Shown piece by piece: positions 8,560 through 34,008 of a DNA stretch of 64,000 bases (the first letter of the stretch is position 1; each line of letters begins with the position of its first letter). The notes beneath the pieces are model-generated. The model was given only the letters and a program-made list of their open reading frames with translations, was not told where the DNA came from and did not search any database. A program made the position numbers and the translations under genes. The stretch is taken from NCBI RefSeq assembly GCF_000721265.1, contig NZ_JOFZ01000009.1:1-64000 (forward strand). The letters run 5' to 3'. The stretch comes from Streptomyces sp. NRRL F-5126 (lineage in GTDB: Bacteria; Actinomycetota; Actinomycetes; Streptomycetales; Streptomycetaceae).

Positions 8560-9428
8560 ACGGCGCCGCCGGCCCGGCCGGTGCGCGGCGGTGCGGCGAG
8601 ACGTCGGGCGCGTGCGTCGGCGAGGTGGCGCCGGGTGAACGACAGGGCCTCCGCGAGGTCCGCCTCGCGCTCGGCCACGGACACCGCGCGGCGCGTGTTG
8701 ACCTCGATGACCACATGGCCGTCGAACCCGCGGTCCGCCAGGCCGTGCAGCAGCTCGGCGCACGGCTGGTCCCCGCGCCCCGGCACCAGGTGCTCGTCCT
8801 TGGCCGAGCCCTTGCCGTCGGCGAGGTGGACGTGTCCGAGGCGGTCGCCCATGCGGTCGACCATGGCCATCGTGTCCGTGCGCGCGGTCGCCGTGTGCGA
8901 GAGGTCGACCGTGAAGTGGCGGTAGTCCTCCTTGGTGACGTCCCAGTCCGGCGCGTACGCCAGCATCTCGCGGTCCCGGTAGCGCCACGGGTACATGTTC
9001 TCGACGGCGAACCGCACGTCCGTCTCGTCCGCCATCCGCCACACGCCGGAGACGAAGTCGCGCGCGTACTGGCGCTGCCAGCGGAACGGCGGGTGCACGA
9101 CCACCGTGGAGGCGCCGAGCTTCTCGGCGGCGGCCCTGGCGCGCTTGAGCTTCGTCCACGGGTCGGTCGACCAGACGCGCTGGGTGATCAGCAGGCAGGG
9201 CGCGTGGATCGCGAGTACCGGCACCTCGTGCCGGTCGGACAGGGCCCGCAGCGCGTCGAGGTCCTGGCTGACGGGATCCGTCCAGACCATCACCTCGACG
9301 CCGTCGTAGCCGAGGCGTCCCGCGATCTCGAAGGCCGTCGCGGTGTTCTCGGGGTAGACGGACGCCGTCGAGAGGGCGACCTTCACCCCCGGGGCGCGCG
9401 CCGCTGGACCTGCCGCTGGATTAGCCAC
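8556..9428 (-). CDS. sugar phosphate isomerase/epimerase family protein (AP endonuclease 2-like TIM barrel)
   Basis: About 290 aa with the xylose-isomerase-like TIM-barrel fold: the N-terminal strand [56 protein letters not shown] and GHVHLADG. The conserved Glu/Asp/His residues that bind a divalent metal in this family are present in the last four segments. The substrate cannot be read from sequence. I chose GTG at 9428 because TACCCT (9440-9435) sits exactly 6 nt upstream, which indicates a leaderless transcript; an ATG 15 codons earlier is possible. It heads a two-gene unit with the TetR gene. Confidence 0.85.
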
Positions 9429-21322: not shown

Positions 21323-22042
21323 ATGGCCGACACCCATGTGCTGTTCGTCGAGGACGACGACGTCATCCGCGAGGCCACCCAGCTCGCGCTGGAGCGGGAC
21401 GGCTTCACGGTGACCGCCATGCCCGACGGGCTGTCCGGCCTCGACGCGTTCCGCGCGGACCGGCCGGACATCGCGCTGCTCGACGTGATGGTGCCCGGCC
21501 TCGACGGGGTGAGCCTGTGCCGGCGCATCCGCGACGAGTCGGCCGTCCCCGTCATCATGCTGTCGGCGCGCGCCGACTCCATCGACGTGGTGCTCGGCCT
21601 CGAAGCCGGGGCCGACGACTACGTCACCAAGCCGTTCGACGGCGCCGTGCTGGTCGCCAGGATCCGCGCGGTGCTGCGCCGCTTCGGCCACGCGGCGGGG
21701 GTGCGGGGCGGCGCGGGGGCCGAGCAGGGCGCCGGTTCCGACGGCGGCGGCCGCTCCGGCGTGCTGGTATTCGGCGACCTGGAGGTCGACACCGAGGGCA
21801 TGGAGGTGCGCAAGGCCGGCGAGCCCGTGTCGCTGACGCCGACCGAGATGCGGCTGCTGCTGGAGTTCTCCGCCTCCCCGGGCACCGTGCTGTCCAGGGA
21901 CAAGCTGCTCGACCGCGTGTGGGACTACGGCTGGGGCGGCGACACCCGGGTGGTCGACGTCCATGTGCAGCGGCTGCGCGCCAAGATCGGCCAGGACAGG
22001 ATCGAGACGGTCCGCGGCTTCGGGTACAAGCTGAAGCCGTGA
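21323..22042 (+). CDS. cseB: response regulator CseB
   Basis: OmpR/PhoB-type response regulator of 239 aa. The receiver domain has the acidic pocket VEDDD, the phosphorylated D54 (LLDVMVPGLDG) and K103 (YVTKPFDG). The winged-helix effector is at the C-terminus (DLEVDTEGMEVRKAGEPVSL, then DTRVVDVHVQRLRAKIG and TVRGFGYKL). The two are joined by a Gly-rich linker of about 20 residues. The TGA overlaps the GTG of cseC by 4 nt. In S. coelicolor phosphorylated CseB activates sigE. Confidence 0.95.
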   Translation: MADTHVLFVEDDDVIREATQLALERDGFTVTAMPDGLSGLDAFRADRPDIALLDVMVPGLDGVSLCRRIRDESAVPVIMLSARADSIDVVLGLEAGADDYVTKPFDGAVLVARIRAVLRRFGHAAGVRGGAGAEQGAGSDGGGRSGVLVFGDLEVDTEGMEVRKAGEPVSLTPTEMRLLLEFSASPGTVLSRDKLLDRVWDYGWGGDTRVVDVHVQRLRAKIGQDRIETVRGFGYKLKP

Positions 22043-23334
22043 GACGGCTCGCCCTGCGCACCGGCATCCGGTGGAAGATCAGCATCGCGATCGCCGCGGT
22101 CGGCGCGCTGATCGCGGTGGCGCTCAGCCTCGTCGTGCACAACGCGGCCCGCGTCTCGATGCTGGACAACGCCCGCGAGTCCCAGCTCGCCCAGACGCTG
22201 TTCGCGGAGCGGCTGTACGACACGACGAAGGAGGCCAAGTTCGGCACGAAGATCAACGATCCGGCGCTGCCGCGCGAACTGCGCGAGAAGGCCAAGCAGG
22301 GCAGGCGCGCCACGCTCATCCAGGGCGGCGGTGTGCCGGACGTGTGGGCCGCGGTGCCCCTCGGCAACGGCACGGTGCTCTCCAGCCACAGCAAGTTCGC
22401 CGAGCGCTCGACGAGGATCATGCAGGACCTGGACCGTGCGCTGATCATCGGCTCGGCGGCCGTCGTCGTCGGCGGCTCCGCACTCGGCGTGCTCATCGGC
22501 GGCCAGATCTCCCGGCGGCTGCGCAAGGCGGCGGCCGCGGCGGGCCGGGTGGCGCAGGGCCAGACGGACGTCAGGGTCGGCACGGCCGTCGGCGGGGTCG
22601 TACGCGACGAGACCGACGAGCTGGCCCGCGCGGTCGACGCGCTGACCGATGCGCTCGGTGAGCGCATCGAGGCGGAGCGGCGGGTGACCGCGGACATCGC
22701 GCACGAGCTGCGCACCCCGGTCACCGGCCTGGTCACGGCCGCCGAGCTGCTGCCGCCAGGCCGCCCGAGCGAGCTCGTACGGGACAGGGCGCAGGCGATG
22801 CGGACGCTGGTGGAGGACGTGCTGGAGGTCGCGCGGCTCGACAGCGCGTCCGAGCGGGCCGAGCTGCAGGAGATCGCGCTCGGCGAGTTCGTCCAGCGCC
22901 GGGTGCCGGCGCTGGATCCCGGCGCTGACGTGGAGGTGGTGCGCGAGTCGTGGGTGAACACGGACCCGCGCAGGCTGGAGCGGATCCTGGGCAACCTGCT
23001 CGCGAACGCGCGCAAGCACGGCGGCGCGCCGATCGAGGTGAAGGTCGAGGGGCGGGTGCTGCGCATCCGCGACCACGGGCCCGGATTCCCTGACGCCCTG
23101 CTGCACGAGGGGCCGAGCCGGTTCCGCACGGGCGCGTCGGACCGTGCGGGCCAGGGCCACGGGCTCGGCCTGACGATCGCGGCCGGCCAGGCGAAGGTGC
23201 TGGGCGCGCGGCTGACGTTCAGGAACGCGGGGGCCGACGGCACGGGCGGGGCGGTGGCGGTCCTCTGGCTGCCGGAGCACGCGCCGACGACGACGGGCAG
23301 CTTCCCGGCCGTGGGCCCCCCGCAGCAGCCCTGA
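22039..23334 (+). CDS. cseC: sensor histidine kinase CseC
   Basis: A 431-aa membrane kinase sensing envelope damage. TM1 is near residues 13-33, followed by an extracellular sensor of about 100 residues (FAERLYDTTKEAKFG ...), TM2 near 134-155, a HAMP linker, then the HisKA phosphoacceptor H222 (TADIAHELRTPVTG). The ATP-binding domain shows the N box NLLANARKHGG, G1 DHGPGFP and G2 GQGHGLGLTIA. A Pro-rich tail ends the protein. The start GTG lies in a GTGA overlap with cseB. It ends the sigE operon; a repeat array follows. Confidence 0.95.
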   Translation: MRRLALRTGIRWKISIAIAAVGALIAVALSLVVHNAARVSMLDNARESQLAQTLFAERLYDTTKEAKFGTKINDPALPRELREKAKQGRRATLIQGGGVPDVWAAVPLGNGTVLSSHSKFAERSTRIMQDLDRALIIGSAAVVVGGSALGVLIGGQISRRLRKAAAAAGRVAQGQTDVRVGTAVGGVVRDETDELARAVDALTDALGERIEAERRVTADIAHELRTPVTGLVTAAELLPPGRPSELVRDRAQAMRTLVEDVLEVARLDSASERAELQEIALGEFVQRRVPALDPGADVEVVRESWVNTDPRRLERILGNLLANARKHGGAPIEVKVEGRVLRIRDHGPGFPDALLHEGPSRFRTGASDRAGQGHGLGLTIAAGQAKVLGARLTFRNAGADGTGGAVAVLWLPEHAPTTTGSFPAVGPPQQP

Positions 23335-23440
23335 GCCCGCAGGCGCGAGGCGCGGCGCACGGCCCCGGCGCGCCCGCCCCGGTGCCCGAGCGGCCGCAGG
23401 TCCCCGGCGCGTCCGGGCGGGACCGGGCCCCGGAAGGCGC

Positions 23441-24202
23441 AGGACCACCATCCGCGGCCAGGCACCCACCCGGCCCGGACGAACACACAGCGCCGTCCTG
23501 GCGAGCCCGCCCCCATCAGGAGCATGCGTACGCCGCACGGCACGTGGCCCTCCACGCGCCGCCAGGGACGGCCCCGGCCCCCGGACCGGCGCACAGGACC
23601 ACCATCCGCGGCCAGGCACCCATGCCCGGCACCCGGCCGGGAACGCACAGCGCCGTCCTGGCGAGCCCGCGCGCAGCCCTCCACGCGCGCCACCCGAGGA
23701 CGGCGCCCGGTACCCACGGCCGCCCCGGCGGCCGGGAGCAGCGCACCGGACCACCATCCGCGGCCAGGCACCCACGCCCAGCACCCCGGACCGGACGGAC
23801 GCACGGCGCCGCCCTGGCGAGCCCGCCCCCATCAGGAGCCTGCGTACGCCGCACGGCACACGGCCCTCCACGCGACGGGCCCGGCCCCCGGACCGGCGCA
23901 CAGGACCCCCATCCGTGGCCAGGCACCCACGCCCGGCACCCCGGCCGGGAACGCACAGCGCCGCGCCGGCAAGCCCGCGCGCGGCCCTCCACGCGCGCCA
24001 CCCGGGGACGCGCCCGGTACCCACGGCCGCCCCGGCGGCCGGGAGCAGCGCACCGGACCACCATCCGCGGCCAGGCACCCACGCCCGGTGCCCTGGACCG
24101 GACGGACGCACGGCACCGACCGGGCGCCGGGCGGGCGGGACGGTACGGCGCGCGGCGCGCGGGCCTCCACGCGCGCCATCAGGGACGGGCCCGGCGCGCA
24201 GG
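23441..24202. repeat. array of five 152-155-bp tandem repeats
   Basis: Five copies of a unit beginning GGACCACCATCCGCGGCCAG start near 23441, 23595, 23747, 23902 and 24054. Units 1, 3 and 5 resemble each other more than units 2 and 4 do, so there is also a 306-bp higher-order period. Odd units contain CCCATCAGGAG and CGTACGCCGCACGGCA; even units contain GGTACCCACGGCCGCCCCGG. The 986-bp gap (23335-24320) that holds the array contains no gene I can support. The unit lengths are not multiples of three, so the long open frames across it shift register from unit to unit. There are no unique spacers, so it is not a CRISPR. Confidence 0.9.
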
Positions 24203-24262
24203 AGCACGTCCCACCAGGCATCCGGCGCCCGGGGCACGCGCCCAGAGCCGGCCGGCACTGAC

Positions 24263-24314
24263 TTGACGTCAAACCTCCACGCCCGTAGGCGAGTTGGCGG
24301 CATTGTGCCAGACT
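24263..24314 (+). promoter_or_regulatory. possible promoter of the DUF574 methyltransferase gene
   Basis: A perfect 10-bp palindrome TTGACGTCAA (24263-24272) includes a -35-like TTGACG. CAGACT at 24309-24314, 6 nt before the ATG at 24321, could act as a leaderless -10. The two are too far apart to form one promoter, so they are either two signals or chance. Low confidence. Confidence 0.3.
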
Positions 24315-24320
24315 GGGCCG

Positions 24321-25211
24321 ATGGCATATTCCAAACCGCCCCAGGTCGACGCCGGCAGACCCCACCCCGCGCGCGTCCACGACTTCCTCCTGGGCGGGAG
24401 GGACAACTACCCCGCGGACCAGCGCGTGGCCCGCCGGCTCCCCGACGGTGCCGCGCGGGCCGCGCGGCAGAACAGGGCGTTCATGCGGCGGGCCGTCGGC
24501 TGGCTCGCCAGCACCGGCGTCGACCAGTTCCTCGACGTCGGCACCGGGATCCCGACCGAGCCGAACCTCCACCAGATCGTCCAGCGCGTCAACCCGGCCT
24601 CGCGGGTCGTCTACGCCGACAACGACCCCGTCGTCCTGCGGTACGCGCAGGCCCGCCTCATCAGCTCCCCGCTGGGGGCCGTCCACTACGTGCACGCCGA
24701 CGTGCGGGAGCCCGCGGCGCTGCTGGCCGCCGCCCGCGGCCTGCTCGACCTCGGCAGGCCCGCCGCGCTGACGCTGACGGCCCTGCTGCACTTCCTGCCG
24801 GACGAGGACGACCCCCTCGGCCTCACCCGCACCCTCGTCGCCGCGCTCGCGGCGGGCAGCTACGTCGTCCTCTCGCACGACACCGGCGACTTCTCCGGCG
24901 ACGCGGCCGACCGTGGCGCCCCGGCACAGGGCCAGGCACAGGGCCAGGCGCCGGACCCGGCGCGGGACGGCGCGTACGGCGCGGGCGCCACGCTGCGGCA
25001 CCGTGGCCGCGCGGATGTCAGCAGGTTCTTCGACGGCCTCGAACTCGTCGAGCCCGGCCTCGTCGCCGCCCCGCTCTGGTACAAGGACACGCCGAGGCCC
25101 GAGGAGGAGACGCCAGGCGTCTACGCGGGCGTGGCACGCGTCCCCGTGGCACGCGTCCCCGTGGCAGGCGTCACCATGACGGGCGGACCCGGGCCGCGCC
25201 ATTCCGGTTGA
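24321..25211 (+). CDS. SAM-dependent methyltransferase, DUF574/SAV2177 family
   Basis: A 296-aa protein. The N-terminus (HPARVHDFLLGGRDNYPADQRVA) and the SAM motif FLDVGTGIPTEPNLHQI with YADNDPVVL are diagnostic of the DUF574 family, which is strongly expanded in Streptomyces. Its substrate is not known; several members are linked to secondary metabolism or to regulators of the conservon type. An Ala/Gln/Gly-rich insertion (GAPAQGQAQGQAPDPARDG) lies in the C-terminal half. The last 20 residues repeat VARVPVA twice through a short tandem duplication. It is flanked by the repeat array on the left and a TetR gene on the right. Confidence 0.88.
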   Translation: MAYSKPPQVDAGRPHPARVHDFLLGGRDNYPADQRVARRLPDGAARAARQNRAFMRRAVGWLASTGVDQFLDVGTGIPTEPNLHQIVQRVNPASRVVYADNDPVVLRYAQARLISSPLGAVHYVHADVREPAALLAAARGLLDLGRPAALTLTALLHFLPDEDDPLGLTRTLVAALAAGSYVVLSHDTGDFSGDAADRGAPAQGQAQGQAPDPARDGAYGAGATLRHRGRADVSRFFDGLELVEPGLVAAPLWYKDTPRPEEETPGVYAGVARVPVARVPVAGVTMTGGPGPRHSG

Positions 25212-25332
25212 GTGACCACGCACTCTTACTTGCCGCCCGGCTAGTACGTACAATGGGCCGGCAGCCACCGATCCGGCGGCCGTCACGCGAGACGCGGCGC
25301 CAGAGGCGCCCCGAGGAGAGCGAGAGCGCGCC

Positions 25333-25920
25333 ATGGCCGGCACGGGAACCCAGCGCAAGAGCGACACCCGGCAGCGGATCCAGGACGTCGCCCTCGACCT
25401 CTTCGTGGAGCAGGGGTACGAGAAGACGTCCCTGCGGGAGATCGCCGAGCGGCTGGAGGTCACCAAGGCCGCGCTGTACTACCACTTCAAGACGAAGGAA
25501 TCGATCCTGGTCAGCCTCTTCGCCGACCGGGTGGAGCCGCTCGACGAGCTGGTCGCGTGGGCGCGGGAACAGCCGCGCACCCTGGAGGTCAAGCAGGAGT
25601 TCCTGCGGCGCTACACGGAGCAGCTCAAGGCGTCCTCCCGGCTGTTCCGCTTCATGCAGGAGAACCAGGCCGAGCTGCGGGACCTGCGCGTCGGCGAGAC
25701 GTTCAAGAGCCGCGTCGACGCCACGCTTGAGCTGCTGCTCGCGCCCGACCCGTCGCTCGCCGACCGGGTGCGCTGCATGGCGGCACTGTTCTCACTGCAT
25801 GCGGGCATGTTCGCCCTGAAGGACGTCGAAGGAGACCCCGAGGAGAAGTACGACGCTCTCCTCGAAGTCTCCTTCGAACTGCTGGCGGCCGCCCACGAGG
25901 GCCGCGGCCCGGCCGCCTGA
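25333..25920 (+). CDS. TetR family transcriptional regulator
   Basis: A 195-aa TetR regulator with the N-terminal helix-turn-helix FVEQGYEKTSLREIAERLEV followed by TKAALYYHFKTKESI. The C-terminal ligand-binding domain is not assignable. ATG at 25333 is preceded by GAGGAGAGCGAGAG. Upstream, TACAAT at 25249-25254 next to the palindrome GTACGTAC (25245-25252) may be the promoter and operator. The gene on its left has the same direction but a separate promoter is likely. Target genes are unknown. Confidence 0.92.
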   Translation: MAGTGTQRKSDTRQRIQDVALDLFVEQGYEKTSLREIAERLEVTKAALYYHFKTKESILVSLFADRVEPLDELVAWAREQPRTLEVKQEFLRRYTEQLKASSRLFRFMQENQAELRDLRVGETFKSRVDATLELLLAPDPSLADRVRCMAALFSLHAGMFALKDVEGDPEEKYDALLEVSFELLAAAHEGRGPAA

Positions 25921-33181: not shown

Positions 33182-33330
33182 GGTCCGACCTTACGCGCCA
33201 AGTCGGACAAATGATGCGAAATACCACGCACAAGGGTGGCCCGGGCGCGCCGCAGGCGCGCGCTCACGCGCACACCCCGGGGCCCGCCGGTGGCCGCACT
33301 GCTCGGGCCCGGCCCGGGTCCGACGCCATT

Positions 33331-34008
33331 GGCACGTGGTGCCTTGCTCCCCGAACCGCGCACGCTCGGGGCCCGCGGGCAGCCGCCTACGGCCGGACAT
33401 CGCGAAGCCACACGACCGCAACCGCGGCGGCCGCGCGAGGCCGCCCGGCCAGGGCCCGGACGCCGCAGGCGCGTGCACCTGGTCACCGGCACGCGCCACC
33501 TGCCCCGAAGCGCACGGCTCGTCGGCCGCGCGCGAGGCCGCCCGGCCCTGGCCCGGGTCCGGGCGGCGCGGGCACCTGGCCGCCACGGCACGCGGCACCT
33601 GCCCCGGAGCGCACGGCGTCGGCGCCTGCGCGGGCAGCCGTCTACGGCCGGGCGTTGCGGAGCCGCACGACCGCAACCGCGGCGGCCGCGCGAGGCCGCC
33701 CGGCCAGGGCCCGGACGCCGCAGGCGCGTGCACCTGGTCATCGGCATGCGACACCTGCCCCGAAGCGCACGGCTCGTCGGCCGCGCGCGAGGCCGCCCGG
33801 CCCGGGTCCGGCGCCGTGGGCACGCGGCCCGGCCGCCAATGACACGTGGTGCCTTGCTCCCCGAAGCGCGCACGCTCGGGGCTCGCGGGGAGCCGCCCGC
33901 GGCCGGGCGTTGCGGAGCCACGCGGCCGCGCGAGGCGGCCCGGCCCGGGCCCGGACGGCGCGGGGGCGTGCGCCTGGTCATCGGCACGTGGTGCCTGCCC
34001 GGAGCCGA
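33331..34008. repeat. tandem array with a 255-bp period, two full copies and a partial third
   Basis: The 137-bp stretch 33411-33547 recurs almost unchanged at 33666-33802, and a diverged third copy starts near 33919. Each copy begins with CACGACCGCAACCGCGGCGG and runs through GCGTGCACCTGGTCA to GAAGCGCACGGCTCGTCGG. Sub-repeats GGCACGTGGTGCCT mark 33331, 33843 and 33983. The array fills the 873-bp gap 33182-34054, where I find no gene. The period is a multiple of three, which explains why several frames stay open right across it. It is unrelated in sequence to the array at 23441. Confidence 0.88.

Follow-up and report, generated by a model that had tools for sequence, protein, structure and literature searches.

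The DNA behind the sensor kinase gene cseC in Streptomyces sp. NRRL F-5126 raises the question of how an intergenic spacer came to be occupied largely by a long-unit tandem array, and whether this array has a function. Within the window, which is the whole stretch of 64,000 nucleotides that we analyzed and to which the coordinates refer, cseC (22042-23334, + strand) encodes HAMP, HisKA and HATPase_c domains, and its open reading frame ends at position 23334. Downstream on the same strand are a Methyltransf_19 (PF04672) gene with a probable ATG at 24321 (24321-25211) and then a gene for a TetR-family regulator (25333-25920). The array accounts for 766 of the 986 bp between the cseC stop codon and the probable methyltransferase start. 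The original prediction placed the array directly after cseC. It is indeed the next downstream feature, but it begins 103 bp past the stop codon.

Organization of the tandem array

A repeat search bears out the predicted five-copy array with a unit of about 153 bp, giving head-to-tail unit starts at 23437, 23591, 23743, 23898 and 24050, and thus spacings of 154, 152, 155 and 152 bp. Every unit opens with a 32-nt core, and copies 2-5 of this core are 91-97% identical to the first. There are no unique spacers, as had been claimed, because the sequences that separate the cores also recur. Tandem Repeats Finder reports a short period (152 bp, 3.4 copies, score 632) and a long period (307 bp, 2.1 copies, 89% matches, score 1050), the latter spanning 23469-24126 on the + strand. 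When positions 23300-24300 are compared with themselves over shifts of 20-499, the self-match peaks at a shift of 307 (0.484), followed by 316 (0.448) and 152 (0.423), over a background mean of 0.360 (sd 0.021). Both signals expected from such a comparison are therefore present, and the predicted higher-order period of 306 bp corresponds to a repeated block of 306/307 bp.

Odd-numbered (A) and even-numbered (B) units constitute two sub-families, wherein unit 1 (23437-23590, + strand) pairs with unit 3 (23743-23897, + strand), and unit 2 (23591-23742, + strand) pairs with unit 4 (23898-24049, + strand). Units 1 and 3 share a segment of approximately 31 nt that is absent from the B units, and both B units have an extra segment near their end that includes the GC-rich inverted repeat GGCCGCCCCGGCGGCC. 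The two A units are identical at 134 of 145 aligned bases and the two B units at 142 of 151, and A and B units are 82-85% identical over 120-121 columns (a divergence of 15-18%). At the level of the two-unit block, 276 of 296 positions are identical between block 1 and block 2, with indels of 10, 9, 1 and 1 nt. The alignments show that the units are related as an A type, a B type and a duplicated block, and they support the earlier proposal that duplication of a two-unit block explains the alternating sub-families.

The two ends of the array are less regular. Unit 5 (24050-24202, + strand) is a clean A-type copy up to 24126, the run into it sharing 110 of 117 bases with the run into unit 3, and it is diverged beyond this point, such that the predicted fifth copy holds only in its first part without qualification. 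The unit-like 3′ end that follows (about 24143-24195) aligns to unit 1 with a score of 56, compared to 39 for the best of 200 shuffles, and by this comparison represents the end of a unit that has diverged. There is no more than a hint of a degenerate, partial copy ahead of 23437, where the sequence aligns to unit 3 with a score of 41, which 1 of 200 shuffles equals, and where 59-132 of 200 shuffles do equally well against the other three full units.

The earlier view that the array contains no gene also stands. GC content by codon position is flat in the spacer (0.79/0.81/0.83), versus 0.76/0.52/0.96 in cseC, and the two long overlapping open reading frames that we tested have no Pfam match at E ≤ 0.01. 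A coding function was rejected on these grounds and because the indels between blocks break the reading frame.

Two compositional features were also considered. Among 8965 overlapping segments of 760 bp in 464 kb of this genome, the most T-poor and the most AT-skewed lie within the array (23401-24160; T 3.9%), and single units fall in roughly the 0.2-2% tail of 153-bp segments for base bias. Much of the extreme seen at 760 bp can thus be put down to a moderate bias that recurs with the units, for which it is a tail value, and we rejected base skew as a special signal. G-quadruplex motifs (one on the + strand near 24122 and two overlapping on the - strand near 23363) do not recur with the units, and were likewise rejected as a feature of the array.

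Distribution among Streptomyces genomes

Of 392 genomes of the genus, 364 have a match to cseC at E ≤ 1e-100, and 30 loci, one of them our own, were fetched by cseC similarity. The array is found in none of the 28 other loci that have downstream DNA (the contig of one more, L040, ends 59 bp past cseC), and blastn at E ≤ 0.01 reveals nothing beyond short alignments (27-38 bp, E 0.002-0.007) in five of these 29 loci. A set of 80 named cseC loci, which may overlap in species with the first set, yields no match to the array at E ≤ 1e-4 in any of the 79 loci with downstream DNA, L093 likewise ending 59 bp past cseC. The suggestion of a recombination hot spot, taken as a general property of the site, finds no support in these 79 loci, though the cseC spacer of genome G136 (L039) carries a different short array, an unrelated heptamer repeat (CGGGTGA, 15.6 copies).

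Three relatives are most informative with regard to the history of the spacer. In the closest, S. montanisoli MMS17-BM035 (L068), whose cseC is 97% identical, cseC is followed by 223 bp and then by the TetR gene, without the array and without the Methyltransf_19 gene. This spacer (about 5395-5620 of L068) aligns to window positions 25124-25332, with a match that is weak at its beginning and becomes strong close to the TetR gene, suggesting an apparent deletion of the array and the methyltransferase gene together. The methyltransferase gene follows cseC in Streptomyces sp. 8L (cseC 87% identical, spacer 87 bp) and in G136 (cseC 89% identical, spacer 283 bp), and these and our own genome are the only cases of this adjacency among the loci examined. 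In G136, as in the window, the methyltransferase gene is flanked by cseC and the TetR gene. The methyltransferase start sequence at 24321 is also present in both genomes. The end of the spacer just before it (24258-24320, + strand) can be aligned to G136 (blastn, 78.8% over 104 columns, window 24258-24358), and so this segment is older than the array. Across these genomes, the best array matches are 64 bp in S. montanisoli and 45 bp in sp. 8L (E about 1e-3), and 108 bp in G136 (E 3.7e-8), on another contig.

Within its own genome the array is a single copy. The next best matches span 28-67 bp (E about 0.003-0.009), and the 24-nt core, at three or fewer mismatches, occurs at five genomic sites that are all in the array, versus one site for a backward-read control. 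Across the genus at E ≤ 1e-6, short matches are present in 14 of 392 genomes including our own, or 13 of 391 foreign genomes, a slight excess over the nine of 392 obtained with the reversed array. The top foreign scores (69.8, 64.4 and 60.8 bits) exceed the control maximum of 57.2 bits, and thus the control leaves the very top of the distribution unaccounted for. No 153-bp array surrounds the best four of the 13 foreign matches, and the top match overlaps an open frame of 462 aa. Judging from these best four of 13, we read the foreign matches as probable compositional similarity of GC-rich DNA. A looser search (E ≤ 1e-3), run without a control at that threshold, gave short matches in 31 of 60 relatives (32 of 61 including our own). 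In 1.43 Mb of comparison loci, the best score of the array (41.9 bits) is within the range of ten shuffles (38.3-45.5 bits). The single genomic copy, the near-control counts in the genus and the shuffle-level score led us to reject a dispersed family, as far as could be seen. Among the matches listed in open-licence literature on Streptomyces intergenic repeats, bacterial higher-order repeats, cseC transcription, S. montanisoli and the MIRU of senX3, no title or abstract start concerned the array, and nothing was found in such literature on a sigE/cseC terminator.

Probable origin of the array

These observations are consistent with the hypothesis, which we consider likely to be correct, that the array is an intergenic minisatellite which is specific to this lineage, near-neutral and built on a dimeric higher-order period, and is ordinary in kind. 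The first step would have been duplication of a piece of about 153 bp from the GC-rich DNA that separates cseC from the methyltransferase gene. The two copies would then have diverged into the A and B types, with gains and losses of segments, and the whole A-B block would have been duplicated later to yield the arrangement A B A B A(partial). We infer that replication slippage or unequal recombination inside the spacer produced the copies. Such an array would probably be near-neutral, in that it adds length to the spacer without displacing cseC or the bases immediately ahead of the methyltransferase start, and it could be removed again by deletion, as apparently occurred in S. montanisoli.

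The relatives also suggest when these events took place. Since both outgroups, sp. 8L and G136, have the methyltransferase gene and lack the array, the array would have been born after their split, unless there was loss in both outgroups rather than gain here. At four-fold degenerate sites, S. montanisoli differs from our genome at 65 of 538 positions (12.1%, three genes summed), and the outgroups differ by 39-41% in cseC; a species about 12% different at such sites is without the array. The divergence between A and B units (15-18%) exceeds 12.1%, and that between the two blocks (20/296, or 6.8%) falls below it. If rates are equal and there was no gene conversion, this ranking would make the first duplication older, and the block duplication younger, than the divergence from S. 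montanisoli, a species that would then have lost both the array and the methyltransferase gene, perhaps in a single deletion. The order of the duplications is supported by the sequences, and the dates are rough. Viewed in this manner, the locus offers a datable case of a bacterial spacer gaining a long-unit, two-tier array over about as much time as the separation of two species takes, and of the apparent deletion of such an array plus a neighboring gene in a sister species. The array could serve as a strain-typing marker, and it leaves knowledge of the sigE-cse system unchanged.

Functional and mobile alternatives

No evidence that we tested points to a function for the array, and the best remaining functional reading would be a structured 3′ region behind cseC. 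Specifically, the array might form the end of the sigE-cseABC mRNA, as its 3′ untranslated region or as a termination zone, wherein the inverted repeats of the B units would stop or slow RNA polymerase before it reaches the methyltransferase gene, and multiplication of the unit would strengthen this effect. The array does reside downstream of cseC on the same strand, with GGCCGCCCCGGCGGCC near the end of both B units. Moreover, the G136 spacer carries a similar sequence (20 nt at 95% identity; E 0.002, the search space being tiny), and a 16-mer of this match, at one mismatch or fewer, occurs once in 1.43 Mb of other DNA. However, the G136 match is the best picked of many, and by a rough estimate its probability of arising by chance is several per cent. 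The inverted-repeat array is lacking in both S. montanisoli and sp. 8L. A scan of 23200-24400, limited to simple kinds of intrinsic terminator-like and promoter-like sites, found none. Shuffled sequences fold as well as the five units do on either strand (z -1.54 to +0.98), and in a consensus fold only 2 of 36 predicted pairs have a two-sided change that is kept, with an unfavorable covariation term (+4.88); on the basis of these z scores and the poor covariation, a conserved RNA structure was rejected. A search of 23000-24600 with Rfam 15 gave nothing in the spacer, the single match at E ≤ 1 (24467-24523) being outside it and below the gathering score. Finally, a study of the S. coelicolor sigE operon reports that about 90% of transcription stops directly after sigE (PMC6767563), and by analogy few transcripts should extend as far as the array. 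For these reasons we regard a termination zone as unlikely.

It is very unlikely, in our estimation, that the B unit took up an ancestral hairpin from behind cseC and that multiplication of this hairpin created a stepwise transcription barrier or a long structured 3′ untranslated region. If this were true, the array would set the extent to which the envelope-stress transcript runs on into the methyltransferase gene.

Alternatively, the 32-nt core could be a candidate protein-binding site that recurs every 153 bp or so, akin to the nucleoid-protein binding array raised by the original prediction. The core family recurs in each of the five copies with at least 91% identity, and there are no fixed differences between A and B among the first 32 nt of the unit, versus 10 among the 79 positions of the remainder. 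This could reflect a constrained core, but the excess conservation is not significant (Fisher p = 0.06). The confinement of the 24-nt core to the array genome-wide, even with three mismatches allowed, and the absence of any trace of the array from the relatives that we compared argue against this reading, which we judge to be highly improbable. The idea that the array is what remains of a mobile element, such as a phage or plasmid, would fit its absence from neighbors, which may point to recent entry into the lineage, as well as an imperfect inverted pair (23350-23379/24129-24158, 77% complementary) that roughly brackets it, but was rejected as extremely improbable because no phage or plasmid record matches in distant mode at E ≤ 1e-5, the exact 24-nt core is absent from the viral contigs searched, the genome has no second copy, and the inverted ends (score 32) are equaled by 77 of 500 shuffles.

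Relationship to known repeat systems

The favored reading, a near-neutral minisatellite, places the array among familiar classes of bacterial repeats in a general sense only. Its units are head-to-tail and non-coding, with no unique spacers, as is true of intergenic minisatellites. The contiguous repeats of about 153 bp set it apart from CRISPR arrays, in which short repeats alternate with unique spacers, and no Rfam 15 family lies within the spacer. MIRUs are a dispersed family found in many spacers of a genome, and this array is single-copy. The mycobacterial MIRU-VNTR locus in the senX3-regX3 spacer (PMC4213456) offers a parallel in that tandem repeats occupy a spacer at an actinobacterial two-component system. 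The MIRU units described there are 77 and 53 bp, versus 153 bp here, and they are located between the two genes, whereas the array lies behind both genes of the Cse pair.

Prokaryotic satellites and minisatellites, as characterized in PMC6749651, resemble the array in being non-coding, long-unit tandem repeats of unique sequence, and differ from it in that the array has a two-unit higher-order period. The entry for S. coelicolor in that source gives 38 satellites (4.20 per Mb), with a last column of 21.1 that we read as the percentage with long repeats (Subirana and Messeguer 2019, PMC6749651). Applying the SATFIND rules given there directly to the sequence, we found GGCCAGGCACCCA in all five units (cores 23437-24081), which exceeds the required four decamer repeats within 800 nt. 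Only two of the four spacings (154, 152, 155, 152) are identical, which is less than the 60% of repeats of identical length that those rules demand (PMC6749651). The intergenic tandem repeats of Borgs, as presented in PMC9879509, are similarly fast-evolving, independently arising arrays with flanking partial repeats. The examples in that source have units of 18-21 nt and belong to archaeal extrachromosomal elements, unlike the chromosomal 153-bp units of this Streptomyces.

Other tandem arrays

Our survey of arrays covered 464 kb of this genome (the window plus a 400-kb sample) and 1.03 Mb of the 80 named loci. In the 464 kb, units of at least 97 bp with flat GC by codon position occur at three places: the 153-bp array, 33324-33929 in the window, and 2232-2492 of L158 (unit 143). 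A further array at 17939-18150 of L159 (unit 117) has uneven GC by codon position and may be coding. The named loci contain four arrays with units of at least 97 bp, two in L078 and one each in L142 and L147. Because the window was chosen for its array, these counts cannot be taken as an enrichment.

The array at 33324-33929 is a second intergenic array in the window, behind coaX, with a unit of 255 bp and an inner 97-bp repeat. The coaX spacer measures 873 bp here; its counterpart in Streptomyces sp. 8L is about 220 bp long. The contigs of S. montanisoli and G136 end about 100-145 bp past coaX. Kinship of this array with the 153-bp array was rejected, as the only matches between them are at E ≥ 0.017. 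In Streptomyces sp. CB01201 (L078), two 57-bp arrays (611-938 and 9047-9315) flank cseC, are approximately 78% alike and have a higher-order period of 112/113 bp. At two or fewer mismatches, their motif, GGGGCGCGGGGAACTGCGCGA, is absent from the window and the 400-kb sample and is present in 5 of the 80 named loci.
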